Shown here piece after piece: positions 14,145-47,785 of a stretch of 64,000 nt of DNA. The stretch spans positions 48,116 through 112,115 of the forward strand of contig CANJBQ010000006.1 of NCBI GenBank assembly GCA_947472645.1, written 5' to 3'. The position numbers and the translations under genes were made by a program. Numbering within the stretch: the first letter of the stretch is position 1; each line of letters opens with the position of its first letter. The notes below the pieces were generated by a model. That model was not told where the DNA came from. It was given only the letters and a program-made list of their open reading frames with translations, and ran no database searches. Source of the DNA: Burkholderiaceae bacterium (lineage in GTDB: Bacteria; Pseudomonadota; Gammaproteobacteria; Burkholderiales; Burkholderiaceae).

Positions 14145-15362
14145 TTATTTTTTCCAACCAGACTCTTCTAAAAGTCTTATTTCCCAAGGAATAATGACTT
14201 TAGAAAAAATATTAGCATCTGTCCAACCTTTTACTTCTCGTCCTAAATGCCCACCTTTTGGATTAATCCAAAAATCTTTTGGAACATCTCCCGCTTCCAT
14301 CAACATCTTAATATCGGATAACAATACCTGAGAGTCATTAACGCCAGCTAATATCAACATTGGGCTGGTAGGGCGTTTCAATAGGTTTTGATCTTTTAAG
14401 GACATTTTAGGAACGTATGCTAATAATTGATCCAGATTACTGACTCCTTCATATACATTGATGGAGGCAGGTAAATAATCAAATAAATACTCAGGGGTAC
14501 TTAATTTCTTCTCAACGAATTTCGACTGAAAAGTATCGTGCACTGGCGGTGATTGCGCTACAGAACCAAGTAATCGATCCTTTTCAATGATTGCCATCTT
14601 CGTCGCCCAGTAGGCACCAAAGCTGACCCCAGAAAATATAATCCTCTTACTATCTACATCAGGCCTTTTCACTAAATAGTCTAATCCAGCAGACAACATT
14701 CTTTCTGCAGTTGGACTGACTTTGATAGGAGCCTGACCGGTTCCAGGGCTATCAATGACAAAAATTCCAACGCCATGTTTCAAAATTTGAGCATAACTAT
14801 CTGCGACAGTTTCTTTACGGCTATCCAAACCACTAACTGCATAAATCATCGGGACAGGTTTATTAGCGCTAGCATCTTTTGGTAATCGTAAATAAGCAAC
14901 TAACTCTTTTCCTTCAAAAGGTATCTTAATGACCTGTAATGGCGGGTCCATGTTTTTACTATATTGCAAATAAGCATCTAATGCCTTGTTATAGGACTCC
15001 ATTTTCCCATTAGATATTGGCGCAGGCCACTGACCAAAGAAATATAAACGCCATGCTTTCTTGTATAACGCACTCGCCTGTTCAGGTGATTGAGCAATTT
15101 TAGCTTGTTGCATATACTTATCAGCAACAGTCCCCCAAGCCTGAGCCCACTCATCTGGGTTGCGGGTTTTTATTTGCCCGAGAGCCTCTTTGACATCTTG
15201 AAGATCAAGTCCTATGAGAGGATAAGCTCCACCATTTTCTGCACGATAAAGAGCCTCTGCCTTAATCTCATCAATATTGCGGTCTTTTATTTGCGCTTGG
15301 GTAGAAAAAGTAGCGATAAAGACTACAACACTCATCGCAAACAGTATTTTTTTCAACATCAC
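14145..15362 (-). CDS. Secreted alpha/beta hydrolase (FrsA/DUF1100-like esterase)
   Basis: 405 aa; signal peptide MLKKILFAMSVVVFIATFSTQAQ; nucleophile elbow GVSFGAY. Confidence 0.8.
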   Translation of the reverse strand: MMLKKILFAMSVVVFIATFSTQAQIKDRNIDEIKAEALYRAENGGAYPLIGLDLQDVKEALGQIKTRNPDEWAQAWGTVADKYMQQAKIAQSPEQASALYKKAWRLYFFGQWPAPISNGKMESYNKALDAYLQYSKNMDPPLQVIKIPFEGKELVAYLRLPKDASANKPVPMIYAVSGLDSRKETVADSYAQILKHGVGIFVIDSPGTGQAPIKVSPTAERMLSAGLDYLVKRPDVDSKRIIFSGVSFGAYWATKMAIIEKDRLLGSVAQSPPVHDTFQSKFVEKKLSTPEYLFDYLPASINVYEGVSNLDQLLAYVPKMSLKDQNLLKRPTSPMLILAGVNDSQVLLSDIKMLMEAGDVPKDFWINPKGGHLGREVKGWTDANIFSKVIIPWEIRLLEESGWKK

Positions 15363-15516
15363 TTTTATCTCCTCATGAATTCCAATAGCGATACAAATTT
15401 AACTTTTAATTCTACCTCTGTTCATCCTTCAAGAGTGTGGGCATCAGCATAAACACTAATAAGCTAAAAGCTGTTTAGAATAGATAAATACATATAATAA
15501 AATTTGGAGAACGCTC

Positions 15517-16500
15517 ATGTGCTGGATGAAAAAAATCATTTATAGCTTTGTTGCATTATTCTACCTAACGATCTTAGTGCCCCCCCAAGCTCAGGCACAG
15601 AATTATCCTAATCGTCCTATAAAATTTATTGCTCCCTTCCCGCCGGGTGGAACCAGTGACGTATTAGGTCGATTTATTGCACAAAAGCTTTCAGAGGGAT
15701 TAGGGCAGCCTGTCATTGTAGAAAATCGTCCTGGTGCTTCTGGCAATATTGGTCATGATCTGGCGGCGAAAGCCCCTGCGGATGGGTATACTTTATTACT
15801 ATCCAACAGTAGTACTGTTGTGAATAACCCATTCCTTTTCAAACAGATGCCTTTTGATTGGTATAAGGACTTTACGCCCATTTCCATGGTTGCAAGTGCC
15901 GGTCAAGTGTTGGTGGTGAACCCGAATGTCCCAGCAAAATCGCTTACCGAATTAACCAATCTGATTAAAGCTAATCCAGGAAAATATAATTTTGGATCGG
16001 GCGGAAAAGGAATTCAATCTCATATTAGTGGTGAAATGTATAAATCTGCGGCAGGTGTAGATATTGTGCATATCCCATATAAAGGTACAGGTCTTGCGGT
16101 AGCAGATGCTGTCGCTGGGCAGATTCAAATGGTATTTTCTGATATGGCACCCGCAGTACCTTTTATTAAAAGTAATAAATTAAGAGCCCTTGCAGTCACC
16201 TCATTACAACGATCCGGTACGATACCCGATGTTCCAACGATGGCAGAACAAGGCTATCCAAACTTTGAAGCAACTGCCTGGTGGGCAATTGTGGGCCCTA
16301 AAGGGTTGCCCACTCCTATCGTTGAACGTATTAATATCGAATTAAGTAAAGTGATGGCAACACAAGAAATCAAAGAAGCCTTCGAAAGATTAGGCGTTTC
16401 TCCGCTCTACAGCAAACCTGAAGCTGTCTTTGAAAAATCACGCGCTGAATCACCCATCATTGGCGAAGTGATGAAAAAAGCCGGTATCGAAAAAGAGTAA
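15517..16500 (+). CDS. TctC/Bug-family tripartite tricarboxylate transporter substrate-binding protein
   Basis: Signal peptide ...PPQAQAQNYPNRPIKFIAPFPPGGTSD; VENRPGASGNIGHDLAAKAPADGYTLL; HIPYKGTG. Confidence 0.96.
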   Translation: MCWMKKIIYSFVALFYLTILVPPQAQAQNYPNRPIKFIAPFPPGGTSDVLGRFIAQKLSEGLGQPVIVENRPGASGNIGHDLAAKAPADGYTLLLSNSSTVVNNPFLFKQMPFDWYKDFTPISMVASAGQVLVVNPNVPAKSLTELTNLIKANPGKYNFGSGGKGIQSHISGEMYKSAAGVDIVHIPYKGTGLAVADAVAGQIQMVFSDMAPAVPFIKSNKLRALAVTSLQRSGTIPDVPTMAEQGYPNFEATAWWAIVGPKGLPTPIVERINIELSKVMATQEIKEAFERLGVSPLYSKPEAVFEKSRAESPIIGEVMKKAGIEKE

Positions 16501-17341: not shown

Positions 17342-18319
17342 TTATAAAGACTTCAAAGCACGTTCGTAATAAGAAAGGTCAACTAATTTTTTTTCCTCTA
17401 AAGGACGGCCCTTACCAAACTGAGTTCGAATAGACAATAAGTTATCAAATCCTTTTTGAGAAAATTGAGCGTCCTTATCTAAACCAAAACCAGGCGTAAC
17501 AAGCGCTTGATAAGACTCTTGAACAATTACAGGATCTAACTTCATATTCTTTGTCAAAATGCTAATGGCCTCATCCTTATTTTTAGGATCAAGCGCCCAA
17601 CGAACCGCTAAGATCCAAGCCGCTATGTATCTTTCAATTACAGACTGATGATCAGCAATCCATGGACGCATAGCAAACATGCCTTGACCTTGATAAGGCC
17701 CCACAAAATCAACTAATTTACCAAGACTTTTTAGGCCAGCTTGTTTTGCTTGAATTGAAAATGGGGGATTCAAAGGAGCAGCAGCATTATCTTTACTCTG
17801 TTTCATGGCCTCTAATCTGAGCGCAGTTCTTCCAACAGGATTGAGTTTATATTCGGTTTCAGAAACGCCTGCAAGTGCTAGGGCCTTCTTCACCTGGAGT
17901 GCGTATGCCGTATTAGGCGCATCTACAACAAGAATCTTGCCACGAATATCTTGCAAAGAATTGAGCTCTGGTTGAACAAACAATTCATTCAAACTTGAAT
18001 CACCACCCATCAAAATCACTGATTCTTTTTCTTTATAGTCCACAATTGCCACGGAATTATCAACCGCTGAATGCGCAATATCAAACTTCCCCTCAGACAA
18101 ACCATCTCTGAGCTCAATCGAATTCATCGTATAGGTTAATTGAACATCTAACCCTTTTGATTGAAAAAATCCTTTTTCTAAAGCGACCCACATTGATAGA
18201 TTTTGAGCGCCAGGGAAAACAATAACCTTCAAGGTATTGCTAGCAGCAAAGACTGATCGGCCAAAAGCTTGGGCAATCAACATGGCTAGTGAATTTCCTA
18301 TAAATTGACGTCTCAACAT
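17342..18319 (-). CDS. ABC-type substrate-binding protein, NMT1/SsuA-like, probable twin-arginine signal
   Basis: 325 aa; MLRRQFIGNSLAMLIAQAFGRSVFAA; KVIVFPGAQNLSMWVALEKGFFQSKGLDVQLTYT. Confidence 0.82.
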   Translation of the reverse strand: MLRRQFIGNSLAMLIAQAFGRSVFAASNTLKVIVFPGAQNLSMWVALEKGFFQSKGLDVQLTYTMNSIELRDGLSEGKFDIAHSAVDNSVAIVDYKEKESVILMGGDSSLNELFVQPELNSLQDIRGKILVVDAPNTAYALQVKKALALAGVSETEYKLNPVGRTALRLEAMKQSKDNAAAPLNPPFSIQAKQAGLKSLGKLVDFVGPYQGQGMFAMRPWIADHQSVIERYIAAWILAVRWALDPKNKDEAISILTKNMKLDPVIVQESYQALVTPGFGLDKDAQFSQKGFDNLLSIRTQFGKGRPLEEKKLVDLSYYERALKSL

Positions 18320-18431: not shown

Positions 18432-19430
18432 ATGAAATCAGCATACCTTACCATATCAAAGATTCTAAAGGGTCTTATTCTATTTTCCTGTTTATTGAAT
18501 CTTTCAAGTTTTGCTCAAAGCTACCCTAATAAGCCCATCACCTTGATTACTCCCTTTCCCGCGGGAGGATCAACAGATTCGATTGCTAGAGCTATTGCTA
18601 ACCAACTGACTAAACAGCTTGGACAAACAGTTATTGTTGATAATCGCCCTGGTGCTGGAGGCAATATTGGTAGTGATGTTGTTGCTAAAGCAGCTCCGGA
18701 TGGCTATACATTACTAATTTTAAGTTCGAGTATTCACTCGATTGGTGCGGCACTAAATAAAAAAGTCTCATTTGATTACGATAAAGACTTTACGCCCATT
18801 ATTCACGTAGCTTCAGCGCCCAATATCTTTCTGGTCACCAAACAACTACCGGTCACTAATCTAAAAGAATTTCTTGATTATGCGAAAGCTCATCCGAATG
18901 CATTGAATTATTCCTCCGCTGGAACAGGTACCATCATGCATCTAACTGGCGAGTACTTTGATGCTCAAACTAGCATTCGTATGCAACATATCCCCTACAA
19001 AGGCTCTGGCTTATCAATGCCGGATCTTATTTCAGGGAAAGTACATGTTCTATTTGATAGTATTATTTCAGGTCTGCCTCACGTTAAAGATGGCAAATTG
19101 AATATCTTGGCAATTACTAGTAAAAAACGCTCCCCCCTCATTCCTGATGTGCCTACCCTGATGGAAATCGGCAAACCATATGGGTTGGGTAACTTCGTGT
19201 CTGAGGTCATCTGGGGGATTGATGGCCCAAAGAACTTACCTCCTGAAATTGTGGCCAAACTCAACTCTGAAATCAATAAAGCGCTCCAATCAAAAGAAAT
19301 CATGCAGGAATTTGCTAATTTTGGTGCAGATACGGGTGGCGGGACCCCTAAATTCTTTGAAAATCTAATCCTAAATGATCGTGCTCAGTGGGCTAAAATC
19401 ATCAAAGAACAAAATATTATTGCCGACTAA
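18432..19430 (+). CDS. TctC/Bug-family substrate-binding protein
   Basis: ...[70 protein letters not shown]. Confidence 0.96.
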   Translation: MKSAYLTISKILKGLILFSCLLNLSSFAQSYPNKPITLITPFPAGGSTDSIARAIANQLTKQLGQTVIVDNRPGAGGNIGSDVVAKAAPDGYTLLILSSSIHSIGAALNKKVSFDYDKDFTPIIHVASAPNIFLVTKQLPVTNLKEFLDYAKAHPNALNYSSAGTGTIMHLTGEYFDAQTSIRMQHIPYKGSGLSMPDLISGKVHVLFDSIISGLPHVKDGKLNILAITSKKRSPLIPDVPTLMEIGKPYGLGNFVSEVIWGIDGPKNLPPEIVAKLNSEINKALQSKEIMQEFANFGADTGGGTPKFFENLILNDRAQWAKIIKEQNIIAD

Positions 19431-19452: not shown

Positions 19453-21087
19453 ATGACATTTCAATGGGCTAACCCATATTCAACGATACGTATTCCTGTT
19501 TTTGCTAGAAATATCGTATCTACCTCTCAACCCTTAGCCTCTCAAGCTGGTTTAAAAATCATTCAGCAAGGTGGTAATGCAGTTGACGCCGCAATCGCCA
19601 CTGCGGCAGTATTGATGATTGTAGAGCCCGTCTCTAATGGCTTAGGTAGTGATATGTTCGCCATTGTTTGGGATGGAGAGAAACTACATGGATTAAATGC
19701 CTCTGGTGTTGCCCCTGCTGCTTGGAGTCCTGAATATTACGAGAAAAAATATGGCCTCGGTGCAAATGGCTTAGCAAATCGCCCTATGAGGGGTTGGGAT
19801 ACCGTTTCCGTACCTGGTGCTATAGCAGGTTGGGCAGCGTTACACAAAAAATTAGGGAAATTAAGCTTTTCGGAAATCTTGGCTCCCGCCATACAAATTG
19901 CGCACCAAGGATATGCGGTCACACCCATTGTTGCTCATAAGTGGGCTGCTGGTATTCCGGATCTGATCAACCAACCAGGCTTTAAAGAAATGTTTATGCC
20001 AAAAGGTAGAGCGCCACATATTGGCGAGAACTTTACAGCTCCTGGTATCGCTAAAACCTTTGAACAACTTTGTAAAAAGGGCTGGGAAGATTATTACCAA
20101 GGAGAAATTGCTGCTGCAATTGTGAAACACTCTACTGACAATGGCGGCGCTCTGCAAATCAATGATTTAAGAAACTATCAACCTGATTGGGTTGACCTCA
20201 TCTCAACGAAATATCGTGGTTATGATATCCATGAAATACCTCCTAATGGACAAGGAATAGGCGCCTTAATTGCACTCGGAATTTGTGAACAGTTCAATCT
20301 AAAGGACTATCCCGTCGATGGTGTATTAAGTCAACATATCCAAATCGAAGCAATGAAACTCGCTTTTGCTGATGTCTATGAATACGTAGCTGACCCTAAA
20401 AGCATGAAAATTAAACCAAGTGATATGCTGGATCCTTCTTATCTTAAAGAACGCGCCAAATTGATTGATTTAAAAAAGGCGACTCATTTTGGCTTTGGTT
20501 TGCCAAATACAGGCGGCACAGTTTATCTAACTACTGCAGATCAAAGTGGCATGATGGTGTCATTTATCCAAAGCAATTACATGGGCTTTGGATCAGGCGT
20601 AGTAGTTCCAGAGTTTGGTGTTAGTTTACAAAATCGGGGCTACGGATTTTCAATGGATCGTCGTTCAGACAATGTCGTCGCTGGAGGAAAGCGTCCCTTC
20701 CATACAATTATTCCAGCCTTCATGACAAAAGAAGTTGATGGTAAAACTTTCCCACAAATGAGCTTTGGGGTGATGGGTGGCGATATGCAACCACAAGGCC
20801 ATCTTCAAACTGTCGTTCGAATGTTGGATTATCAACAACAACCACAAACTGCTTGCGACGCTCCACGTTGGAAAGTGAACCGTGACTTTACTTTAGACGT
20901 TGAATCTAATCTCAATTCTGAAACAGTGATCGGTCTAAAAGCACTCGGACACGAACTAAAAAGTATTGAAGACCCTTATATGGACTTCGGTTCTGGGCAA
21001 TTTATTTGGCGTCAAACAGATGACTTAAATGACGGCTATGTCGCTGCTAGCGATTGTAGAAGAGATGGTTTAGCCGCTGGCTTATAA
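19453..21087 (+). CDS. Gamma-glutamyltransferase family protein
   Basis: 544 aa; QPLASQAGLKIIQQGGNAVDAAIATAAVLMIVEPVSNGLGSD; GGTVYLTTADQSGMMVSFIQSNY (Thr nucleophile region). Confidence 0.93.
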   Translation: MTFQWANPYSTIRIPVFARNIVSTSQPLASQAGLKIIQQGGNAVDAAIATAAVLMIVEPVSNGLGSDMFAIVWDGEKLHGLNASGVAPAAWSPEYYEKKYGLGANGLANRPMRGWDTVSVPGAIAGWAALHKKLGKLSFSEILAPAIQIAHQGYAVTPIVAHKWAAGIPDLINQPGFKEMFMPKGRAPHIGENFTAPGIAKTFEQLCKKGWEDYYQGEIAAAIVKHSTDNGGALQINDLRNYQPDWVDLISTKYRGYDIHEIPPNGQGIGALIALGICEQFNLKDYPVDGVLSQHIQIEAMKLAFADVYEYVADPKSMKIKPSDMLDPSYLKERAKLIDLKKATHFGFGLPNTGGTVYLTTADQSGMMVSFIQSNYMGFGSGVVVPEFGVSLQNRGYGFSMDRRSDNVVAGGKRPFHTIIPAFMTKEVDGKTFPQMSFGVMGGDMQPQGHLQTVVRMLDYQQQPQTACDAPRWKVNRDFTLDVESNLNSETVIGLKALGHELKSIEDPYMDFGSGQFIWRQTDDLNDGYVAASDCRRDGLAAGL

Positions 21088-21088
21088 A

Positions 21089-21910
21089 TTGATGCGAACT
21101 GAACTGATTACCATTGAAACAGACACGATCCCCATCGAGGGATTGTTTTATGAACCAACAGGGCCCATTAAAGGTGCGGCTTTATTTTTTCATGGTAACA
21201 CCATGAATTTTTATACTGGCGCCGCCAAGTTTTTAGGTCCTGCAATGGTAAATGCCGGTTTTGCTTTTTTTGCATTTAATCGACGCGGACATGATATTTT
21301 ATCGACCCGAGCCAGTAGAAATCCAGTAGGTGGTGCCTATCAAACCATCGCAGAGTCACTTGCTGACAATGATTATGCAAGACAATGGCTAATTAATCGT
21401 GTACATACTCAACCTATTGTGATTGGGCATAGCAATGGCGGCATGCTTGCCGTTGCTCATGTTGCGAAATATTCCAATACGCCTGCCCTTGTTTTATTAT
21501 CTGCTCCTCGGGGTGGTGTAGGCCAAGACTTAGTAAGAGGCTCTGAAAAATTATTTGCCATGGATCAAGTGGACCAAATTACTGCTCAAGCAAAAGAATT
21601 AGTTGCTCAAGGTAAAGGCAAAGAACTCATCAATTTACCCGGTTGGTGGTACATCATTAGTGCGGAGAGTTTTTTAGATCGTTTAGTCTCAGTTCCAAGT
21701 ACGATTGCACTAGCCCCACAAATTCATTGCCCAGTATTAGCTATTCGAGGGGATCAAGAAGATCAACATCGTTATCCTGCCGAAGAATTTAAAGCAGCAT
21801 GCTCTGGAAATGTTGATGTAAAGATCATTCATGACTGCGATCATTTTTACAATCAAAAAGAACGAGAAGTGGCTTTACAAATTACTCAATGGCTAAACCA
21901 TCAAGTTTGA
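21089..21910 (+). CDS. Alpha/beta hydrolase
   Basis: 273 aa; GAALFFHGNTMNFYTG; VIGHSNGGMLAVAH; HDCDHFY. Confidence 0.88.
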   Translation: MMRTELITIETDTIPIEGLFYEPTGPIKGAALFFHGNTMNFYTGAAKFLGPAMVNAGFAFFAFNRRGHDILSTRASRNPVGGAYQTIAESLADNDYARQWLINRVHTQPIVIGHSNGGMLAVAHVAKYSNTPALVLLSAPRGGVGQDLVRGSEKLFAMDQVDQITAQAKELVAQGKGKELINLPGWWYIISAESFLDRLVSVPSTIALAPQIHCPVLAIRGDQEDQHRYPAEEFKAACSGNVDVKIIHDCDHFYNQKEREVALQITQWLNHQV

Positions 21911-22030
21911 TATCGTCTATCCATAAAAAGTACGGGATAACCCCAAACCCGGAAGAGTTATCGAAGTAAAGATTGAATACTGCGTCTCAATTAACGTAAA
22001 CTATCTCTATAAGATCCATTAGGAGACAAT

Positions 22031-23032
22031 ATGAAAATTTTACAAACAATTGCGATTTTTGTTGGTTGTGCTTTAGGAGCATCATTCTCAAGCTTTGCCC
22101 AAAGTACGTTTCCTAACCATCCGATTAAATATGTTGTGCCTTTTCCGCCAGGTGGCGCTACTGATAATGTAGCAAGACCAGTTGCCGCAGAAATAGCACG
22201 AAGTATGGGATGGAATGTCATCATCGAAAATAAACCAGGTGCTGGTGGAAACATTGGTGCTGACTATGTTGCAAAGTCAAATCCAGATGGATATACCTGG
22301 CTGATGGCCTCTGTTGGAACACACGGGATTAATCAACCACTTTATACACAAGGAACTAATAAACTTCCGTTTGATCCGATTAAAGACTTTATACCAGTGA
22401 CATTGGTCGCGGAGTTGCCTAATGTCTTGGTTTTAAATCCGGCGTTTGCTGAGAGAAATAAAATCAATACGGTCAAAGATTTAATCGCTTATGCAAAAGC
22501 GAATCCTGGAAAAATTAACATGGCATCCAGTGGCAGTGGTACATCAATACATATGGCAGGAGAGCTCTTTAAATCGATGACTAAAACGTTTATGGTTCAT
22601 TTACCCTATCGTGGTAGTCCTCCTGCTCTTACTGATTTAATGGCCGGCAATACAGATATCATGTTTGATAATTTACCGTCTTGTATTAACTTTATTAAAG
22701 CAGGCAAGTTAAAAGCTATCGCGGTGACTAGCGCTAAACGTTCACCGGTATTTCCAGATTTGCCAACGATTGCTGAAGCAGCAGACTTGCCTGGTTATGA
22801 AGCCACATCTTGGTTTGGCATTGTGATTCCAGCAAAGACCCCGCCAGATCTCGCGGCAAAGATTAGTGATGCGGTAATTAGAGCAGTCAGAAGTCCTGCG
22901 GTTAGAGAGCAATTAAGTGCTATTGGTGCAGAAGCATCTGGCATGCCTAGTGATCAATTTGCTGAATATATCAAAAAAGAAATCGCGAAGTGGACGAAAG
23001 CCGTAAAAGACTCTGGGGCTAAAGTCGACTAA
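22031..23032 (+). CDS. TctC/Bug-family substrate-binding protein
   Basis: [64 protein letters not shown]. Confidence 0.96.
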
Positions 23033-23035
23033 TTT

Positions 23036-24688: not shown

Positions 24689-24736
24689 TTTTAAATACTT
24701 TATAGAATGTTGTTATTTATTGTTGTAAGAATTAAC

Positions 24737-25720: not shown

Positions 25721-25789
25721 GAGGTCTCCAATTTATTATATTTTTACTAGGGTAAACCAAAACTTAGTTTGTATCAAGATGAGGCAAGT

Positions 25790-36078: not shown

Positions 36079-36122
36079 GAATGTTCTCCATATTCAAACA
36101 TATTAATATTTTTGTTCATCAT

Positions 36123-36140
36123 ATCACTATTGGTAGTGAT
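36123..36140. promoter_or_regulatory. Perfect inverted repeat ATCACTA-TTGG-TAGTGAT in a divergent intergenic region; candidate operator
   Basis: Read directly: 7-bp arms, 4-bp spacer, between a class II aldolase (minus) and an FAD monooxygenase (plus). Confidence 0.45.
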
Positions 36141-36249
36141 TATTTTTCACAATCTTCGGTCTTTAACAAACTTGTGAAACGTCCACTCTTTGTGGTTAAA
36201 TGAGTGCATTCTTCCATATAAATCAATTCTTTACCTTCAAACATCCACT

Positions 36250-37869: not shown

Positions 37870-37905
37870 ATGTATTAAAATATCTTTAAAATATAAGGAG
37901 ACACC

Positions 37906-38892
37906 ATGTATAAAAGAATAATTCAATTATTCTCATTTGTTGCTATTTTCTGCACACTGCTCGCATCTAGTTACGCTCAAAATAATGTCGCTAATTACCC
38001 CAATAAGGTTGTTACTCTTATTGTTCCTTTTACTTCAGGAAGTGGCAGCGATACTATCTCTAGAATCATTAGCCCTAAACTTAGTGAACGTTGGAAACAG
38101 GCCGTCATAGTTGATAACCGTGCCGGTGCAAGTGGCAATATAGGTACTGATCATGCCGCTAAATCTGCTCCAGATGGTTACAGTATTCTTATGGCGATCG
38201 ATACCATGACCATGACACCAGCGGTGTACAAAACGCTACCTTATGACCCGATAAAAGATTTAGAGCCCATCGCTAGGATTGCTACATCGAGTTATGGTCT
38301 TGCTGTAACGAATACCCTACCGGCTAAAGATGTGAATACCTTAATGTCACTCATTAAAAGTAAGCCTGGCCAATTGAACTACGGCTCACCAGGAAACGGG
38401 ACGCCACATCATTTATCAATGGAATTACTGAAAAGTCTAAAGGGTTTAGATATCGTTCACGTTCCCTATAAAGGGATCTCCAATGCAACAACCGACCTGA
38501 TCGGTGGACAAGTACAAGTCATGTTCGCCACCTTTAATTCTTTATTGCCGTTTGCAAAGGCAGGGAAATTGCGCATGATCGCCGTGACTGGTCCAAAACG
38601 CTCAGAGCTAATGCCAGAAGTCCCAACCTTTACCGAGCAAGGCATCCCTGAATTAGAAAATCTTTATCCTTGGTATGGTGTTTTAGTTCCAACAGGAACA
38701 CCTAAAGATATTCAATCAAAAATCTACAACGATTATATTTCCATCATGAAACTTCCTGAAGTAGAAAAACAACTCAATGATTTAGGGATCTACGTCAGAT
38801 TAACCAACGGTGAACAATTGAAAGAGATTATTCAATCAGATATTGCCCGCTGGAAAAAAGTTGTCAAAGATGCCAACATACAAGCGAACTAA
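37906..38892 (+). CDS. TctC/Bug-family substrate-binding protein
   Basis: ANYPNKVVTLIVPFTSGSGSDTISRIISPKL; VDNRAGASGNIGTDHAAKSAPDGYSIL; HVPYKGIS. Confidence 0.96.
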   Translation: MYKRIIQLFSFVAIFCTLLASSYAQNNVANYPNKVVTLIVPFTSGSGSDTISRIISPKLSERWKQAVIVDNRAGASGNIGTDHAAKSAPDGYSILMAIDTMTMTPAVYKTLPYDPIKDLEPIARIATSSYGLAVTNTLPAKDVNTLMSLIKSKPGQLNYGSPGNGTPHHLSMELLKSLKGLDIVHVPYKGISNATTDLIGGQVQVMFATFNSLLPFAKAGKLRMIAVTGPKRSELMPEVPTFTEQGIPELENLYPWYGVLVPTGTPKDIQSKIYNDYISIMKLPEVEKQLNDLGIYVRLTNGEQLKEIIQSDIARWKKVVKDANIQAN

Positions 38893-38896
38893 TTAC

Positions 38897-39949
38897 ATGA
38901 CTACTCTTACCTCCACTCAACCTGTTATCGACATTTACAACCATGTCATGCCGCCTAGCTATATGGAGGAACTGAAAAAATATAGCAAAGATCCTGGTCT
39001 TTTAAAAAGAATGTCTTCTCTTCGCTTACTTTGGGATATTCCAGCACGCGTAGAGATGTTAAAAAAATGGCCTCAGGTAAAACAAGTCTTAACATTAGCT
39101 GTTCCCTCTCCCGAAATGTTAGTCGATGGTGATCTATCACCTAAATTAGCTCGTATTGCCAATCAAGGTATGTATGAGATGTGCCAAACATGGCCAGACT
39201 TTTTTCCAACATTTGCTGCTACCTTGCCAATGAATAACCCTGCAGCCGCTCTGATTGAAATGGATTATGCGATTGAGCATTTTGGCGCAAGGGGCGTTCA
39301 AGTTCTCTCAAGTGTCAATGGCGTAGCACTAGATCACCCTGACTATTTTCCTATTTTTGAACGTATGGCCAATCATCATCAACTACCTATTTGGATGCAT
39401 CCGATTCGTCTTGCGAAAAAGCCGGATTATGTCGATGAGGAAAAATCAAAATATGAGGTCTGGCAAGTATTAGGCTGGCCCTTCGAGACAAGCGTAGCCA
39501 TGTCTCGACTTGTATTTTCTGGAGTTCTAGAGAAATTACCAAACCTTAAAATCATTACCCATCATTGTGGTGGCATGATTCCTTACTTTAGTGGCCGTGC
39601 TGAAACCCTCTGGGCGCAACTCGGATCACGAAGTGCAGATAATAGTGAAGCAGATGTACTGAAGTCATTGAGTAAGCCTCCAATCGATTATTTCAAAATG
39701 TTTTATGGCGATACTGTCTTGGGTGGCTCTGCCTCAGCACTTCGTTGCGGCCTAGACTTTTTTGGAACAGATCATGTTGTCTTTGCCAGTGATTGCCCAT
39801 TTGACCCTGAAGGCGGTGAGATGTATATCCGTGAAGGGATCAAGTCTGTTTTTGCAGTGGGTTTAAGCTCAGAAGAAATTCATCAGGTGTGTTGCTCAAA
39901 TGCCAACCTGCTGATGAAAACAAAAATTAATGCCGGAGATAAAACATGA
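38897..39949 (+). CDS. Amidohydrolase-2 family protein (ACMSD/resorcylate decarboxylase-like)
   Basis: Start set to MTTLTSTQPVIDIYNHVMPPSY; LPIWMHPIRLA, KIITHHCGGMIPYFSGR, DHVVFASDCPFDPEGG. Confidence 0.9.
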   Translation: MTTLTSTQPVIDIYNHVMPPSYMEELKKYSKDPGLLKRMSSLRLLWDIPARVEMLKKWPQVKQVLTLAVPSPEMLVDGDLSPKLARIANQGMYEMCQTWPDFFPTFAATLPMNNPAAALIEMDYAIEHFGARGVQVLSSVNGVALDHPDYFPIFERMANHHQLPIWMHPIRLAKKPDYVDEEKSKYEVWQVLGWPFETSVAMSRLVFSGVLEKLPNLKIITHHCGGMIPYFSGRAETLWAQLGSRSADNSEADVLKSLSKPPIDYFKMFYGDTVLGGSASALRCGLDFFGTDHVVFASDCPFDPEGGEMYIREGIKSVFAVGLSSEEIHQVCCSNANLLMKTKINAGDKT

Positions 39950-40737
39950 TTATTGAAGCAAATGGTATAAAAATCCATTATGAAATTGATGGTGACGAAA
40001 ATAAACCTTGGTTAACGATGGTGACAGGTATTACGAATGACACAACCATGTGGGATGGCCAAATCGATACCCTCAAAAATGATTTCCATATATTACGGTA
40101 CGATCTTCGCGGACAGGGCAAAACCAGCGCTACTCATGGCCCATATTCCGTCGAATTACTGTGCCAGGATTTATTGGCTCTTTGGGATGCCTTAGCAATT
40201 AAAAAGAGTCATCTAACTGGGTTGGGACTTGGGGGCTCTATTTGCTTAGCTATGGGCATTCACCATTCTGACCGCATTATTAAACTAGTACCATGCTGTT
40301 GCCGCTCAAAAATGGTACCTGCCTTTGCTAGTATGTGGCAGGATCTGCTGAGCAATGTTCGTGACAATGGTATCGAGTCTATTGTAGAAAATACTGCCCA
40401 ACGTTGGTTCTCCGATACCTTTAAAACCCAATATCCAGAAAAATTAAATGCTGTGCGCCAAATGATTCGCGGCACAAGTGCTGATGGCTATCATGGCGTT
40501 GTGAGTGCTTTCATTAACCTTAATATTGAAGATCAATTAAAAAATATAAAAGTACCAACCATGTTAATGGGAGGTGCTGAAGATAAAGTGGGTGGTCCTG
40601 AAGATATAATGCGTACCATTGCAGAACATATTCCTGGGGGATCTTACATACCAGTTCCCAATGCCGCACACATTGCTAATCTGCAAAATCCAGATGGCTT
40701 TAATAAAATCTTGCATACTTTCTTAATGCAATCTTAA
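39946..40737 (+). CDS. Alpha/beta hydrolase fold protein (3-oxoadipate enol-lactonase-like) with atypical nucleophile elbow GLGLGG
   Basis: 263 aa; RYDLRGQGKTSATHGPYSVELLCQDLLALWDAL; HLTGLGLGGSICLAMG; VPNAAHIANLQNPDGF. Confidence 0.88.
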   Translation: MIIEANGIKIHYEIDGDENKPWLTMVTGITNDTTMWDGQIDTLKNDFHILRYDLRGQGKTSATHGPYSVELLCQDLLALWDALAIKKSHLTGLGLGGSICLAMGIHHSDRIIKLVPCCCRSKMVPAFASMWQDLLSNVRDNGIESIVENTAQRWFSDTFKTQYPEKLNAVRQMIRGTSADGYHGVVSAFINLNIEDQLKNIKVPTMLMGGAEDKVGGPEDIMRTIAEHIPGGSYIPVPNAAHIANLQNPDGFNKILHTFLMQS

Positions 40738-40758
40738 TCAAACAACCTGGAGCTATTT

Positions 40759-41721
40759 TTGAAAAAAATATTACAGTTATCTTTTGCCGCCTATTTCTTG
40801 ATCATTGGAGTAGCCTTTGCAGATACCTATCCTTCCAAAATGATCCGAATTGTAGAGCCAGCAGGCCCCGGAAGTGCGGTCGATAATGCGGCAAGAGACC
40901 TTACTCCAGGAATGTCAGACCTATTAGGTCAACAAGTCATTATTGATAATAAACCTGGCGCAAATAGCGCTATAGGAGCAAACGAAGTAGCCCGCGCACC
41001 AGCTGATGGATATACCTTATTCCACGGTAATGTCAACAATGCGCTCAATGATCTTCTGCTAAAAAATAACTGCTGTAAGTTGGGAGATGCTTTGGTGCCA
41101 GTAACGCGTGTGGTTAGCGTTCCATTAGTCATGGTGGTCCATCCATCTCTTCCTGTTAACAATCTTAAAGAGTTTCTTGCTTACGCTAAGGCAGAACCCA
41201 CCAAAGTTACAAACGCTTCAGGTGGCGCAGGCTCGATTACACAATTACTGGGTGAGTTAACTAAAACCAAAGCAGGTATTTCCATGACTGAAATACCTTA
41301 TAAAGCAATTGGTGCAGAAATGCCAGATTTATTGGGTGGACATGTCATGGTCGCTTATTTAGCCCCTGTCGTAGTTGCTCAACATATTAAGTCTGGTAAA
41401 TTAAAAGCCCTTGGAGTTGCTGGAGCCAAACGTATTTCAATCATGCCTGAAGTGCCTACTCTGGCAGAGGCAGGCCTCTCAGGCGTTGAGGGCGCAGGAT
41501 GGAATGGTATTTTTGTTCCAAAAGGAACTCCTGAACCTGTGATCACACGACTATTTGCTGAAATTAACAAGGTCATGAATACCTCTGGATATAAAGCAAA
41601 AGCTGCTACCTATGGCTATGAGATTGGTAGTGAAAGTCCTGAGAGTTTTAATCAATTTGTCAAAGATGAAATTGTTAAATGGGGTAAAGTCATTAAAGAC
41701 GCCAATATTAAACTCGATTAA
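40759..41721 (+). CDS. TctC/Bug-family substrate-binding protein (divergent, CC-containing)
   Basis: DTYPSKMIRIVEPAGPGSAVDNAARDLTPGM; IDNKPGANSAIGANEVARAPADGYTLF; TTG start. Confidence 0.94.
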   Translation: MKKILQLSFAAYFLIIGVAFADTYPSKMIRIVEPAGPGSAVDNAARDLTPGMSDLLGQQVIIDNKPGANSAIGANEVARAPADGYTLFHGNVNNALNDLLLKNNCCKLGDALVPVTRVVSVPLVMVVHPSLPVNNLKEFLAYAKAEPTKVTNASGGAGSITQLLGELTKTKAGISMTEIPYKAIGAEMPDLLGGHVMVAYLAPVVVAQHIKSGKLKALGVAGAKRISIMPEVPTLAEAGLSGVEGAGWNGIFVPKGTPEPVITRLFAEINKVMNTSGYKAKAATYGYEIGSESPESFNQFVKDEIVKWGKVIKDANIKLD

Positions 41722-41733
41722 AAAGAAATTCTT

Positions 41734-42570
41734 ATGCCCTACGCAAAAATTCGTTCTGTCAATATTTTTTATGAGACTTTCGGTACACATGGTCCTTGGC
41801 TGGCCTTAAACTCAGGCGGGCGTAATAGCCATGCAGAAATGGCTCCTTTAGCAAAACAGATTGCAGAAAAGGGTTTTCGCGTTCTCGTTCACGATCGTCG
41901 AAATACAGGCGCCTCTCAAATGCTATTCGAAGGTACTGACGGCGAAGAAGAGATTTGGGCAGACGACCTGTATGAACTCATGAAATCACTGAATGCACTC
42001 CCGTCCTATTTTGCTGGTTCATCGGCAGGGGCACGTTTGTCAATGATGGTAAATCGCCGACATCCTGAAGCCGTCAAAGGACTGTTACTGATGCGCGTGA
42101 CTGGTGGAGCTTTTGCGGCTGGAAGACTACCAAACATGTATTACCTACAGTTTATTCATGCCGCCAAAGAAAATGGAATGGCTGGCGTCTGTAATACTCA
42201 GCCCTATATCGACCGACTAGCACTCAACTCGGACAACCGCGCTTATCTGATGTCCCTAGACCCACAAGAGTACATTCGTCAACAAGAGTTTTGGCTAGAA
42301 AAATTTCTACTCGGTCCACGTTCACCAGTGATGGGGATGGAAAATACCGAATTGCAACAATTTAATTTACCAGTATTAGTCGTTCCTGGTAACGATAAAA
42401 CCCACGCTAGTGCAAATGGTATTACAGCACATCAACTCATACCAAAAAGCGAACTATTCCAGTTACCCACAACAGACCAAGATGTCGATTTGATCGCATT
42501 CCCATTGTGGGCAGAATTCTACCCACTTCTCACAAAGCGTTTCGTCAAATTTATGCAAGATCACCCATAA
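41734..42570 (+). CDS. Alpha/beta hydrolase
   Basis: 278 aa; VLVHDRRNTGASQM; YFAGSSAGARLSMMVNRRHPEAVKGLLLM. Confidence 0.88.
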   Translation: MPYAKIRSVNIFYETFGTHGPWLALNSGGRNSHAEMAPLAKQIAEKGFRVLVHDRRNTGASQMLFEGTDGEEEIWADDLYELMKSLNALPSYFAGSSAGARLSMMVNRRHPEAVKGLLLMRVTGGAFAAGRLPNMYYLQFIHAAKENGMAGVCNTQPYIDRLALNSDNRAYLMSLDPQEYIRQQEFWLEKFLLGPRSPVMGMENTELQQFNLPVLVVPGNDKTHASANGITAHQLIPKSELFQLPTTDQDVDLIAFPLWAEFYPLLTKRFVKFMQDHP

Positions 42571-42583: not shown

Positions 42584-43333
42584 TTACCAGGCAGTTTCTA
42601 ATCCATACTTTTTAATCAAGGGAACTGCTGGTCCAGATTTTAAAGTCTTTATCAAATCTTTTGTGGCCGCTAAGTCTCTCACTTGCTCATGAATGCCAAA
42701 AGCAAAAATGGTGACGAACTGAATCTCCGGTGGCAATGGCCCTACTAAATCAATTCCAGGAACCGAGAGTATCTCTGGTACTTGTTGAAACCCTATCTCT
42801 GCATCCCCGCGTTCTACAACGGCTCCGACCGGCTCACCTTGAATGACTTTTAATTTAGGGGCGATTGCCTCGGTGACTCCCATCTTCTGAAATAAAGATA
42901 CTAAATAAACACCACTCGGGCCTGTCGAATACGCGACTGATTTAGCGTTAAGCAACGCCGTCTTTACGGCTTCGGCTGAACTAATATCTGGTTTAACTGA
43001 ACCTTTTCTCATGCCAATGCCAATTCCAGACTTAACGTAATCTTGACGTGAGCCAGCCTGTATTTTGCCAAGTCGCGTTAACTCATCAATACCATTACTA
43101 GCGACAATGACGAGGTCTGCTGCCTCGCCACCCTTTAGACGGTTCATAATCTCCACAGTAGGTAACCACAATGTTGTGACACGATGGCCAGTTGCTTTTT
43201 CAAACTCCGGAATCATCGCTAAATAGGCTTCTTTAAATGCTACAGAAGATATCACCTTAATCTCAGATGCCATCACTTGCGCTCCTATTGTCATACCAAT
43301 CATCCCTATGATGATGGTGAGTATTCTTTTCAT
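42584..43333 (-). CDS. ModA-like substrate-binding protein
   Basis: 249 aa; signal peptide; EIKVISSVAFKEAYLAMIPEFEKATGHRVTT..ADLVIVASNGIDELTRLGKI; GDAEIGFQQVPEIL. Confidence 0.87.
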   Translation of the reverse strand: MKRILTIIIGMIGMTIGAQVMASEIKVISSVAFKEAYLAMIPEFEKATGHRVTTLWLPTVEIMNRLKGGEAADLVIVASNGIDELTRLGKIQAGSRQDYVKSGIGIGMRKGSVKPDISSAEAVKTALLNAKSVAYSTGPSGVYLVSLFQKMGVTEAIAPKLKVIQGEPVGAVVERGDAEIGFQQVPEILSVPGIDLVGPLPPEIQFVTIFAFGIHEQVRDLAATKDLIKTLKSGPAVPLIKKYGLETAW

Positions 43334-43369: not shown

Positions 43370-43888
43370 TTAATGCCCAACATGTAATGCATTTAACAAT
43401 CTTGAAACCATGTTGTAGGCTGAAATCGTCGTAACAACTTCCAAGATTTCTTGATCATTAAAATATTTCTTCACAAGTGAGTAAAGCTCATCAGGTACCT
43501 GTACCTGCTTAGTCATCACATCTGTGAACTCTAATACTTTAACTTCTAGCTCAGAAAATCCACTACTCACTTTATCTTTCTGGAGCTCTTCAAGTTGCAT
43601 CTGAGTAACACCCTCTTTGAGGGCAATTGGTGCGTGAGCATCAAACTCAAACTGAGCACGATTCAAAACTGCTACCCGAAGAATCATCAGCTCACGAAGA
43701 CGTGCAGGTAATGAACTTTTATTTCTAACAGCAGTAAGTAATGCTTCCCAACCCTTTGCAATTTCAGGACTATTGAGTAATACCTGATACAGCGGAGAAA
43801 TTCGACCACGCTCTTTTAAAATTCGTGCTTCAATTTCTGCTAATTCAGGTTTTGAGCCTGGGACAACTTCTTGTATACGTTTATTCAT
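43370..43888 (-). CDS. Carboxymuconolactone decarboxylase-family protein
   Basis: 172 aa; LPARLRELMILRVAVLNRAQFEFDAHAPIALKEGV (CMD core; no CxxC). Confidence 0.88.
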   Translation of the reverse strand: MNKRIQEVVPGSKPELAEIEARILKERGRISPLYQVLLNSPEIAKGWEALLTAVRNKSSLPARLRELMILRVAVLNRAQFEFDAHAPIALKEGVTQMQLEELQKDKVSSGFSELEVKVLEFTDVMTKQVQVPDELYSLVKKYFNDQEILEVVTTISAYNMVSRLLNALHVGH

Positions 43889-43890: not shown

Positions 43891-44853
43891 TTACTCTGGT
43901 TTAATATTTTTATCTTTAATTAATTTTGTCCACTTATTGATATCACTCTTCAAGATCGTGGCCAACTCTTCCGCGGTAGATCCAACCAGGTCAGCGCCCG
44001 ACTGAAGCAATCGATTTTTAATCTCTTCTTGAGCTAACACCTTTTTAATTGCTGCATTGATGCGCTCGATTTCAGCTTTAGAAGTTCCAGCCTTTGCAAA
44101 CATCGCATACCAATTATTCGAATCTACTCCAGGCACGCCCATCTCCACAAATGTTTTAACCTCTGGTAGCGCCGGACTTCTTTTGTTAGAAGCAATACCA
44201 ATAGCTTTCAATTTACCGGATTTAATATAACTGATAAGACCTGGTATATCACCAAAAAATCCGTCTACGTGTCCGCCAAGTACGTCAGTAATGGCAGGCG
44301 CCGCACCTTTATAGGGGACATGGAGTAATTTTCCTTTAGTAGAGTCAGCAAGTTGCTCCATCGCTAAATGCGGTACGCTCCCCGTTCCTGAAGATGCCAT
44401 GGTGAGTTCTTTTTGTTTAGATAACGCCACAAACTCAACGCCATTATTCGCGGGGTTAGATGGATTAACTACTAAAACTTCGACGTTATTAACGACTAAA
44501 GATACTGGCGCAAAATCTTTTAGTGAGTTGTAGGGTAGCTTTTCATACAATCCAGGATTGATTGCCACAGCTCCAGCACTTGTAAACCAAAGTACTTTGC
44601 CATCAGCAGGTGCATTAATCATATATTCAGCGGCAATTGCTCCATTACCGCCAGGTTTATTTTCAATCAGAATTTGCGTATTGAGTTCTTTACCTAAAGG
44701 CTCAGCAATCGTCCTTGCCACAAAGTCAACAGGACCTCCTGGAGGAAAAGCCACTAACATCTTGATGACGTTATTTTGTGCCTGTGCCATCGTCATGCAA
44801 AAAAGACTCAATCCAATACTCACAAATCGATTCAGTAAATTTCTATTGTTCAT
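43891..44853 (-). CDS. TctC/Bug-family substrate-binding protein
   Basis: Start set to MNNRNLLNRFVSIGLSLFCMTMAQAQ; KMLVAFPPGGPVDFVARTIAEPL; IENKPGGNGAIAAEYMINAPADGKVLW. Confidence 0.95.
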   Translation of the reverse strand: MNNRNLLNRFVSIGLSLFCMTMAQAQNNVIKMLVAFPPGGPVDFVARTIAEPLGKELNTQILIENKPGGNGAIAAEYMINAPADGKVLWFTSAGAVAINPGLYEKLPYNSLKDFAPVSLVVNNVEVLVVNPSNPANNGVEFVALSKQKELTMASSGTGSVPHLAMEQLADSTKGKLLHVPYKGAAPAITDVLGGHVDGFFGDIPGLISYIKSGKLKAIGIASNKRSPALPEVKTFVEMGVPGVDSNNWYAMFAKAGTSKAEIERINAAIKKVLAQEEIKNRLLQSGADLVGSTAEELATILKSDINKWTKLIKDKNIKPE

Positions 44854-44866
44854 GTTTTTCTTTCTA

Positions 44867-45667
44867 TTAATCACACTTGGCAGACATTCCGCCATCAATC
44901 ACTATTTCAGTACCTGTGATAAATCGCGCTTCTTCAGATGCTAAAAAAACTGCTGCATTAGCCGTATCCATTCCGTCACCCATAAACGGTAATGGAATAC
45001 GTGCTTGGCGTTGCTCTAATATAGTGGATACATCACCGCCAGTCCGCTGCTTTGCTAGACGCGTCTCAACCATCGGTGTATGTAATTGCCCCGGCACAAT
45101 GGTGTTCACCCGAATATTTTGTTTGGCATATTGCACAGCAAGTACTTTTGAGAACTGAATAATTCCAGCCTTTGTAGCGGCATAGGCAATTTGAGCAGAT
45201 CCTGTCCAGCGCATACCGGAAGTCGAGGCCATATTAATAATAGAACCTGATCCTTGCTGAATCATACCGGGTAGTACATATTTACAGGTTAAAAAAACGC
45301 TCTTCAGGTTGTAATCGACCTGAGTATCCCAAATCTCTTCAGTCATCTCCACTGGCCCACCTTTAGCAGATCCTCCAACATTGTTGACTAAGATATCAAT
45401 GCGGCCAAAACGCTGAAGACACTCTTGCACCATCTGCTCAATCGAAGAGGATTGCATGACGTCAACAATCCCTTTATGAATATTCACTTTTTCTTCTTTA
45501 GCGTAGGAGAGTGTTTCATCCAAACGCGCCTCATCGATATCCGTGGCAAATACTTGCGCACCTTCTTGAGCAAACCGAATCGTCATCGCCCTACCATTAC
45601 CCCAGCCTGGGCCAACGGATCCTGCACCTGTAATTAAGGCGACCTTACCTTTTAATCGATCTGACAT
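44867..45667 (-). CDS. Short-chain dehydrogenase/reductase (SDR)
   Basis: 266 aa; GKVALITGAGSVGPGWGNGRAMTIRFAQEGA; IDILVNNVGGSA; YAATKAGIIQFSK. Confidence 0.94.
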   Translation of the reverse strand: MSDRLKGKVALITGAGSVGPGWGNGRAMTIRFAQEGAQVFATDIDEARLDETLSYAKEEKVNIHKGIVDVMQSSSIEQMVQECLQRFGRIDILVNNVGGSAKGGPVEMTEEIWDTQVDYNLKSVFLTCKYVLPGMIQQGSGSIINMASTSGMRWTGSAQIAYAATKAGIIQFSKVLAVQYAKQNIRVNTIVPGQLHTPMVETRLAKQRTGGDVSTILEQRQARIPLPFMGDGMDTANAAVFLASEEARFITGTEIVIDGGMSAKCD

Positions 45668-45690: not shown

Positions 45691-46554
45691 TTATTTAAAC
45701 CCATAAAAACGTTCTGGATTTTTTACCATTATATGCATCAACTTCGCTGAAGTATCCGCAATCTGACTAATGGCATCAACTAAGATCTCATCCTGAGGAA
45801 TATGGTGATGATTAGGATGAGGCCAATCCGTACCCCAAACACATTTATCCGTAAATTGATTCACCATGATCTTGGCTAATTGAATGCCCTGTGTATATGG
45901 CACTCCTTTTACTATTCGATCAACCCCACTCACTTTCATATGCATTTTAGGATCATCCATCAGATGCAACAAGGCCTGAAAATCTTTGTGATTTTCACCT
46001 AAGGTGGCATCTACTCTGCCGATATGGTCAATCATCACTGGAGCGGCTGACTTTTTGAGTTGAGGCGCTAACTCATGCACTAAATCACTACTAAAGTGAA
46101 CTTGTAAATGCATATTCAGAGGCTCTAAACGTTTGGTTAACTCTAAAATATCCTCCATGCTGTCACTATTTTTTAAATGCGCCATAAAGTTAAATCGTAT
46201 ACCCCGGAAACCTTGTAAATACATTTCTTTCAAGGTGGTGGTATCGACCTTCGCCGAACTTAAGGCAACGCCTAAATAAGTTCCTGGTCGGGCTTGCATA
46301 GCGTCCACTACTACCGCATTATCTAAACCATGTAATGCCGTTTGTACGATGACGCAACGCTCAATCGCTAAAAGATCATGCAGTGCAAATAAAGTCTCTT
46401 TTGGAGCATCAACAGGCGTAAAGTTTCTATGTTGAACATAAGGAAAGCGCTCTGCAGGTCCGAATATATGGCAATGCGCATCACATGAAAGAGGCGGTAA
46501 TCTTAAGTTAGGTTTTTTGGGGTGAACTTCATACGTTTGTATTAGATCAGTCAT
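45691..46554 (-). CDS. Amidohydrolase-2 family protein, 2-pyrone-4,6-dicarboxylate lactonase (LigI)-like
   Basis: Start set to MTDLIQTYEVHPKKP; LPPLSCDAHCHIFGPAERFPY; LEPLNMHLQVHF; VMIDHIGRVDA; CVWGTDWPHPNHHHIPQDEILVD. Confidence 0.9.
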   Translation of the reverse strand: MTDLIQTYEVHPKKPNLRLPPLSCDAHCHIFGPAERFPYVQHRNFTPVDAPKETLFALHDLLAIERCVIVQTALHGLDNAVVVDAMQARPGTYLGVALSSAKVDTTTLKEMYLQGFRGIRFNFMAHLKNSDSMEDILELTKRLEPLNMHLQVHFSSDLVHELAPQLKKSAAPVMIDHIGRVDATLGENHKDFQALLHLMDDPKMHMKVSGVDRIVKGVPYTQGIQLAKIMVNQFTDKCVWGTDWPHPNHHHIPQDEILVDAISQIADTSAKLMHIMVKNPERFYGFK

Positions 46555-47785
46555 TTTTATTTTTTTCCTCAATTAAATCTTTAACATGTAAGTTGCGCAG
46601 ATGAGGGGCGTATTGATAAAACCCAATTGCCACTAATACCGTGATTACGCCACCAAAGGCAATCGATGGGGCAAGTCCCATTAAGCTTGCCGCCACTCCT
46701 GACTCTAGCGCCCCAAGTTCATTTGATGATCCTACAAAAATACCATTAATCGAGCTGATTCTGCCACGCATATGATCCGGAGAAGTCAACTGGAAAATAG
46801 CGATTCGAACAACCACTGAAAGTGAATCAAAGCAACCACTTAAAAATAAAAAGAAAGCACTTAACCATATCGTTTCCGATAAGCTAAATCCAATAATAGA
46901 TATACCAAAACCCGCCACACCAACCAAAATATATTTCCCAGAATTTTTTAATATAGGGTTTCTAGCAAAATAAATACCCGTAATAATAGCTCCTACAGCT
47001 GGAGCCGCTCGTAAGATGCCTAAGGTCTCTGGGCCTTGATGCAAAATATCTTTTACAAATGCAGGCAGCATCGAAACAGCGCCACCAAATAGAACAGCAA
47101 GCATATCAATCGTCATTGCTGACAAAATAAGCTGATGATTTTTAACGTATTGAATACTCTCAATCAAGCTATCCCAAAAAGGAGCCGTATTTTTATCTCT
47201 TTTTAGATGTTTTAAATGGACGGTTAATACGCCATATTGACCAATTAAAGCCAATAACCCAGAGATAAGATAGGCCCACTGTAGACCCGCACTTGCAATG
47301 ATAATTCCTCCAATAGCCGGTCCAGAGACAACGCAGACCTGATACGCAGAGGATGCATACGCAGAATATTTTGGTGTCAGTGCGCGCGGTATCACTTGCC
47401 CAAAAATAGATTGATAGGCAGGTCGTAATAATGATCTTCCTATCCCCAAAATTGCTACCGATACATAAATGTGCATCTCGGGGGGGTCAAGGTCTCCACG
47501 AGCCACATACATCAAAAATATACCCATCAGTACATGTAATACGCAAGCAATCGTAGCAATACCTTTACGTGAGTACGTATCCACTAAATGGCCCGCAAAT
47601 AATGAGCATAAAAAATAAGGGATTAATTCGGCAAGACCCAGAAGTCCAAGAGATATAACGTTATTGGTAATATCAAATAAATGCCAACCTACAGCAACCA
47701 TCATCATCTGATAACTCAGTGTGGTTCCTACCCGATAAGCAAGAACCGCAGTAAAGTCTCTTTGGATAGCCTTAGAATTTTTCAT
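46547..47785 (-). CDS. MFS transporter (enterobactin exporter EntS-like subfamily)
   Basis: 412 aa, multiple TM segments; SLGLLGLAELIPYFLCSLFAGHLVDTYSRKGI; DHMRGRISSINGIFVGSSNELGALESGVAASLMG. Confidence 0.9.
   Translation of the reverse strand: MKNSKAIQRDFTAVLAYRVGTTLSYQMMMVAVGWHLFDITNNVISLGLLGLAELIPYFLCSLFAGHLVDTYSRKGIATIACVLHVLMGIFLMYVARGDLDPPEMHIYVSVAILGIGRSLLRPAYQSIFGQVIPRALTPKYSAYASSAYQVCVVSGPAIGGIIIASAGLQWAYLISGLLALIGQYGVLTVHLKHLKRDKNTAPFWDSLIESIQYVKNHQLILSAMTIDMLAVLFGGAVSMLPAFVKDILHQGPETLGILRAAPAVGAIITGIYFARNPILKNSGKYILVGVAGFGISIIGFSLSETIWLSAFFLFLSGCFDSLSVVVRIAIFQLTSPDHMRGRISSINGIFVGSSNELGALESGVAASLMGLAPSIAFGGVITVLVAIGFYQYAPHLRNLHVKDLIEEKNKND

Follow-up and report, generated by a model that had tools for sequence, protein, structure and literature searches.

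The window analysed here is the whole 64,000-nucleotide stretch at positions 48,116 to 112,115 of contig CANJBQ010000006.1 (C6 below), from the assembly GCA_947472645.1 of a Burkholderiaceae bacterium, and its subject is an island in which genes for TctC-family (Bug) receptors alternate with genes for catabolic enzymes. These receptors belong to the tripartite tricarboxylate transporter (TTT) family, whose membrane components are TctA and TctB. PF03401, the Pfam model of TctC, matches 11 complete open reading frames (ORFs), T1-T11, which span 15517-44898 and score 197-250 bits against a cut-off of 27 (E<=1e-57); T12, a twelfth, partial TctC at 63540-63998, is interrupted by the assembly, as contig C6 ends at 112115, the right edge of the window. 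The count given in the initial annotation, 11 complete receptors and a twelfth at the right edge, is confirmed by these matches. The route by which the ligands of orphan Bug receptors enter the cell is a long-standing question, for which the comparative evidence gathered here favours a distant TctAB channel shared among receptors as the best-supported reading. The genes concerned are as follows.

15517-16500, plus strand: T1, TctC/Bug receptor (PF03401, E=6e-65)
17342-18319: NMT1-like orphan binding protein
18432-19430, plus strand: T2, TctC/Bug receptor (PF03401, E=8e-66)
19453-21087, plus strand: gamma-glutamyltranspeptidase-family enzyme (GGT), downstream of T2 (PF01019, E=2e-144)
21089-21910, plus strand: alpha/beta hydrolase (PF12697)
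22031-23032, plus strand: T3, TctC/Bug receptor (PF03401, E=7e-71), present in 76 of 186 genus genomes
23036-24688, minus strand: thiamine pyrophosphate (TPP)-dependent enzyme of the PRK08199 subfamily, tail-to-tail with T3 (NF006052, 750 bits, above cut-off)
24737-25720, minus strand: T4, TctC/Bug receptor (PF03401, E=3e-66)
25790-26767, minus strand: gentisate 1,2-dioxygenase-like cupin enzyme (PF07883; TIGR02272 at 376 bits, under its cut-off of 442)
26783-27652, minus strand: fumarylacetoacetate (FAA)-hydrolase-family enzyme (PF01557, E=8e-54)
27784-28764, plus strand: T5, TctC/Bug receptor (PF03401, E=2e-69)
28773-29489, plus strand: class II aldolase-family enzyme (PF00596; nearest named model 3,4-dihydroxyphthalate decarboxylase, under cut-off)
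31382-32353, minus strand: T6, TctC/Bug receptor (PF03401, E=4e-62)
32391-33380, minus strand: NMT1-like orphan binding protein between T6 and T7 (PF09084 at 24.3 bits, above cut-off; PF12974 under cut-off)
33397-34359, minus strand: T7, TctC/Bug receptor (PF03401, E=1e-65)
34362-35339, minus strand: T8, TctC/Bug receptor (PF03401, E=3e-64)
35359-36078, minus strand: class II aldolase-family enzyme beside T8 (PF00596, E=2e-28)
36190-37869, plus strand: FAD monooxygenase (FMO) of the PRK06126 subfamily, upstream of T9 (PF01494, E=1e-75; NF004780, 550 bits)
37906-38892, plus strand: T9, TctC/Bug receptor (PF03401, E=5e-74)
38843-39949, plus strand: amidohydrolase, whose longest ORF overlaps the end of T9 (PF04909)
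39946-40737, plus strand: alpha/beta hydrolase upstream of T10 (PF00561)
40759-41721, plus strand: T10, TctC/Bug receptor (PF03401, E=4e-62)
41734-42570, plus strand: alpha/beta hydrolase downstream of T10 (PF00561)
42584-43333, minus strand: ModA-like orphan binding protein, SBP_bac_11 (PF13531, E=6e-36)
43370-43888, minus strand: carboxymuconolactone-decarboxylase-family protein (CMD; PF02627)
43891-44898, minus strand: T11, TctC/Bug receptor (PF03401, E=5e-58); likely start at the in-frame ATG at 44853
44867-45667, minus strand: short-chain dehydrogenase (SDR) upstream of T11 (PF13561, E=6e-59)
45691-46572, minus strand: amidohydrolase (PF04909)
46547-47785, minus strand: MFS transporter, first gene of the run on this strand to which T11 belongs (PF05977/PF07690)
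63540-63998, plus strand: T12, receptor truncated by the contig end (PF03401, E=9e-22, profile positions 2-103)

The island is a real and unusually dense example of an already known kind of orphan receptor array. Its 11 receptors occupy the densest 30 kb of the genome, and random placement of 154 genes gave a mean maximum of 6.2 per 30 kb and reached 11 in none of 2000 draws, so that the cluster lies beyond chance; the array also extends outside the window, with 14 further receptors in the first 48 kb of contig C6. T1-T11 are all intact and have hydrophobic N-termini, in which AxA-like motifs were recognised by eye and with a simple pattern only. Against three relatives, dN/dS was 0.03-0.11 for receptors and 0.02-0.13 for other genes where it could be computed, several comparisons being saturated at synonymous sites and yielding no value; the window receptors are under strong purifying selection. 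Recent tandem duplication as the source of the island receptors is ruled out, as the closest in-genome paralogue of each is 36-47% identical. For T9, a 300-genome sample of the order yielded no close orthologue, and matches from outside the genus reached approx. 44-46% identity at best. Over approx. 300 residues, the profile of T1-T11 matches 2dvz (E=3e-102), the terephthalate-binding protein 8hka, Bug27 (2qpq), BugD (2f5x) and others, and the fold of the receptors is thus already fixed by solved relatives.

A metabolic enzyme is the immediate neighbour of nine of the 11 receptors, and the suggestion that every receptor adjoins an enzyme therefore fails for T6, which lies between cytochrome b561 and an NMT1-type binding protein, and for T7, which lies between that same binding protein and T8. 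The term "permease-less", which had been applied to the island, holds for TctA and TctB only, since the run to which T11 belongs starts with an MFS gene, after which comes an RND pump. This efflux pump has HlyD and outer-membrane partners and precedes an MlaE/MlaD/ABC lipid-transport-like set on the same strand (47850-57200 in all), and the gene order of the stretch is kept in three relatives (G426, G444, and G445). Beside the NMT1-like proteins at 17342 and 32391 and the ModA-like protein at 42584, no permease of their own type is annotated.

The genome (3.1 Mb in 103 contigs, completeness 100%, contamination 0.82%) holds at least 150 scored TctC matches among 158 candidates, and our own profile gives 154 in the 788 kb of stretches around receptors in which neighbourhoods were examined by simple ORF calling. 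A genome-wide count sets at least 154 TctC against two TctA, on contigs C8 and C2, and two TctB adjoining them. Contig C6 has neither gene, no tctA or tctB lies beside the window receptors, and the original statement that none is present in the 64 kb stands. A cognate tctAB next to the window is ruled out on contig C6, as none lies to the left and the right edge is the contig end. In 24 other genomes of the genus, loose TctC candidates number 4 to 146 (approx. 4 to 158 across the genus as a whole), and TctA mostly one to four; none was found in G022, which is 83% complete, and seven in G017, including pieces of broken copies. The extra G017 copies (C1:457117-457843 and C1:1100602-1101799) are in pieces, some with in-frame stops, and the copy between alaS and glnS is intact. 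Elsewhere in the Burkholderiales, two genomes of 5.5-5.7 Mb (G289 and G319, family code f46) may carry approx. 600-700 TctC, more than the published 434: loose candidates number 707 and 1007, and sampled contigs give 121 and 108 per Mb (loci L172-L176 and L246-L265). These densities come from 16 TctC in 132 kb and 25 in 231 kb and are not full counts, and the figure of 1007 seems too high against the sampled density of G319.

The two membrane pairs differ in their setting. The C2 tctBA comes after its own divergent receptor, as it does in G002 and G010 (3/3 genomes inspected), whereas the C8 tctBA has no receptor of its own and is located between alaS and glnS. All 23 genus genomes inspected show the receptor-less order alaS-tctBA-glnS, which in one case is truncated by a contig end after tctA. 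Furthermore, the alaS-glnS copy is the only TctA in G251, G016, G005, and G011, which have 17, 8, 6, and 4 loose TctC candidates, respectively. Such members of the genus, with a sole receptor-less TctA and 4-17 receptor candidates, would make the idea of a shared channel testable by one deletion.

In a sample of 250 genomes of the Burkholderiales, TctC and TctA are both present in 107 and both missing from 138, the latter including G064, whose TctA match is under the family cut-off; four genomes have TctC without TctA (one receptor each), and one has TctA without TctC. TctA is present in all 95 genomes with at least two receptors and in all 65 with at least ten (35 genera), which favours shared channels; no genome of the 250 had several receptors but lacked TctA. 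It should be noted that a loose first-look TctC count was used for some genomes, that TctA was counted up to six, and that relatedness inflates significance, so that 35 genera is a fairer figure than the number of genomes. Together with the ratio of at least 154:2 and the receptor-less tctBA in 23/23 genomes, this distribution supports the proposal of the initial annotation that the receptors share a distant TctAB.

The same distribution bears on two other roles for the receptors. They might act mainly as sensors, or as periplasmic buffers for signalling, rather than in import, as with BctC and BctE in Bordetella; this would agree with the lack of an adjacent channel, which is the rule for these receptors, and BctC of Bordetella pertussis both signals and transports (PMC5812351). 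However, pure sensing does not predict TctA in every sampled genome with at least two receptors. Moreover, the annotated genes of 14145-47785 include no identified histidine kinase or regulator, and regulators are likewise missing from the 25 commonest Pfam families listed genome-wide for either set of receptor neighbours (254 proteins). Sensing as the main role thus appears improbable. Alternatively, the receptors might feed permeases of other families (MFS, ABC, TRAP, and others), encoded nearby or elsewhere, as could be suggested by the MFS gene at the head of the T11 run and by the TctC genes that adjoin ABC and TRAP genes in Rhodoplanes (PMC5994714). Transporters are nevertheless rare as nearest neighbours: the 25 commonest families listed for the 133 close same-strand neighbours include none, and the 121 other neighbours include two MFS and two ABC proteins. 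In addition, the MFS gene and its neighbour ahyB are apart in the single distant genome with both genes. Since this explanation also leaves unexplained why several-receptor genomes always have TctA, we consider that there is little chance of its being correct. The mechanism favoured by gene content and distribution remains one in which one or two TctBA channels would be used in common by many receptors, the window receptors presumably among them.

Gene order provides a further connection between the island and the channel. In several other Burkholderiales families, a tctA of the C8 type (63-70%) precedes a gene of the GGT family; a TctC comes next in some of them, and then a convergent gene for a TPP enzyme, and the GGT genes that come after tctBA in these families include relatives (50-56%) of the window GGT enzyme. 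The segment 19453-24688 repeats the order GGT, TctC, and tail-to-tail TPP, but without tctBA and with a hydrolase inserted; this shared order ties the segment to the channel by gene neighbourhood. Separately, receptor and GGT are paired twice in the genome, since another gene of the GGT family immediately follows a receptor other than T2 (C77:1524-4108, L007).

Conservation of the units was followed by a DNA search of 22000-41999 against 186 genus genomes and by mapping orthologues in the loci of relatives. The closest relative, G445, is 86% identical and collinear, and the others are lower. Several units are kept while the junctions between them change: T3 with the TPP enzyme; the dioxygenase, FAA hydrolase, T5, and aldolase; the NMT1-like protein, T7, T8, and aldolase; T9 with its amidohydrolase; T10 with a hydrolase on each side; and CMD, T11, and SDR. 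These units were grouped after the conservation data had been viewed, and the grouping itself is therefore no test. The dioxygenase unit of G370 and G456 stands right beside the FAD monooxygenase/T9 unit, with the intervening window units absent at that spot. Gain and loss appear to involve whole units. The clearest case is that of T3 and the TPP enzyme, which occur together in 73 genus genomes. They share a contig in 72 of these, and in all 72 they are tail-to-tail neighbours (median gap 62 bases), although the other neighbours of T3 vary; in the 73rd, the genes lie near the ends of two contigs, so that adjacency is not assessable. In distant genomes, adjacency is likewise kept for T3 and TPP (9/9), T9 and the amidohydrolase (6/6), T8 and the aldolase (4/4), and T10 and each hydrolase (4/4), whereas it is absent for TPP and T4 (0/3), the hydrolase and T3 (0/3), and FMO and T9 (0/6), mostly with one additional gene between. 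Orthologous receptors thus keep their partner enzyme, as the supported pairs show.

The correspondence does not extend to receptor clades. A FastTree tree was built from 148 receptors of the genome itself, and 22 enzyme families have several receptor partners; for most of these, the tree requires at least as many changes as there are partner receptors, i.e., the partners are scattered on it. Partners of class II aldolases are mildly clustered (five changes for seven receptors). Among paralogue pairs 40-45% identical, 7/283 have an immediate-neighbour family in common (random 1.2%), and among those above 45% identity, 0/16 do. These results give no support to the idea that, within the genome, receptor clades correspond to enzyme families, and the clade-level correlation that the initial annotation had proposed to look for was not found. 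Its suggestion that a neighbour may predict the ligand accordingly survives for orthologues, which retain their partners, and not at clade level; the inference that "the partner tells the ligand" can be transferred between orthologues only, to which ligand prediction from neighbours is restricted. Across the genome, 133 neighbours lie on the same strand as a receptor and no more than 60 bases from it, and 125 Pfam families are matched among them. Catabolic enzymes predominate: alpha/beta hydrolases, FAD monooxygenases, class II aldolases, arylmalonate decarboxylases, UbiD, SDR, amidohydrolases, and TPP enzymes are the most frequent (the listing, for this set as for the 121 other neighbours, covers the 25 commonest families).

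It is reasonable to propose, with a probability of roughly 60%, that the island is a series of small catabolic gene units, each with its own periplasmic capture protein (Bug/TctC), which deliver to a shared receptor-less TctBA channel. The receptors would bind different small substrates, probably carboxylates, and hand them to the channel, and the neighbouring enzyme might then work on the imported compound. The receptor would move with its enzymes while the channel stays fixed, so that a new unit would require no new channel. A stronger form, in which the single TctBA between alaS and glnS would serve as the common inner-membrane port for up to approx. 150 receptors and the units would be plug-in modules, is possible, but we give it somewhat less than an even chance.

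Four observations weigh against this proposal. Phylogeny is a confounder of the joint occurrence of TctC and TctA, which is no proof that every receptor uses the channel, and the presence of two tctBA pairs means that exclusive use of the C8 pair is not implied. In the tctBA-GGT-TPP block of other families, the TctC is closest to a different receptor of the present genome (C16_25283 or C19_46105), and T3 was therefore rejected as its counterpart. Finally, when all island pairs are taken in distant genomes, receptor-enzyme adjacency is not better conserved than enzyme-enzyme adjacency (39/51 vs. 16/19). Consequently, the claim that each receptor and its enzyme form a cassette is upheld for orthologues, where units persist and T3 and TPP stay paired, and finds no backing in the comparison of pairs. 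The island might instead consist of accumulated catabolic genes, partly horizontal, in which adjacency reflects operon inertia and the ligand is often unrelated to the adjoining enzyme. This explanation fits a shared channel, but not ligand prediction from neighbours. It would account for pairs that are no better kept, for in-genome paralogues that are so distant, for the scatter on the tree of receptors beside one enzyme family, and for the wide range of receptor numbers across the genus. However, it is at odds with the constancy of the T3-TPP pair amid varying neighbours and with TphC and Bug69, whose ligands match the neighbouring pathway (PMC8556258, PMC11452294), and we regard it as unlikely. 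Catabolic units that share a channel remain the preferred reading. With regard to their natural setting, a contig scan with the gentisate dioxygenase as query gave two loci, both from boreal-lake metagenome-assembled genomes, and these relatives, together with genome size and GC content, suggest a freshwater humic setting and, probably, the genus Polynucleobacter. In river communities of which Polynucleobacter is a member, TTT genes have been associated with humic and lignin-derived compounds (PMC7597016).

Much of this picture has precedents. Orphan Bug expansions with few TctAB, the shared-channel and sensing hypotheses, and receptors in catabolic operons are already published (PMC5812351, PMC5994714, PMC8556258, PMC11452294, PMC4996985), and a shared channel was proposed in 2003, for which a 2018 review noted that no evidence was yet available (PMC5812351). 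New here are the receptor-less, position-conserved tctBA, the lack of any several-receptor genome without TctA in the order sample, and the negative clade test; no description of a receptor-less tctBA pair was found in a limited literature search, which is weak evidence of novelty. The window resembles the orphan TctC beside arylmalonate decarboxylases (Amdase) in beta-proteobacteria in its decarboxylase adjacency (PMC4996985), and five Amdase-family proteins are close same-strand receptor neighbours elsewhere in this genome, but no Amdase was identified among the window genes. The quinolinate binders Bug69 and Bug27, encoded in nadC/nadQ operons, are likewise orphan receptors, and there gene neighbours predicted the ligand (PMC11452294); however, the pathway is another one, and receptor cluster and pathway go together there, in contrast to enzyme family and receptor clade in the present genome. 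In Comamonas, the terephthalate operon includes the gene for TphC, whose membrane partner TpiBA is encoded at another site (PMC8556258, PMC5812351). The same arrangement is seen here, with the receptor gene in a catabolic unit and the membrane pair elsewhere in the genome, although one receptor was studied there and the present genome has approx. 154, of predicted function, for two pairs. The expansions in Bordetella, Cupriavidus, Advenella, and Rhodoplanes similarly combine many TctC with very few TctAB, the receptors being scattered and in small arrays (PMC5812351, PMC5994714). Unlike those, the present genome reaches a ratio of approx. 77:1 in only 3.1 Mb, its window receptors are not close copies of each other, and one of its two tctBA pairs is receptor-less and fixed in position throughout the genus.

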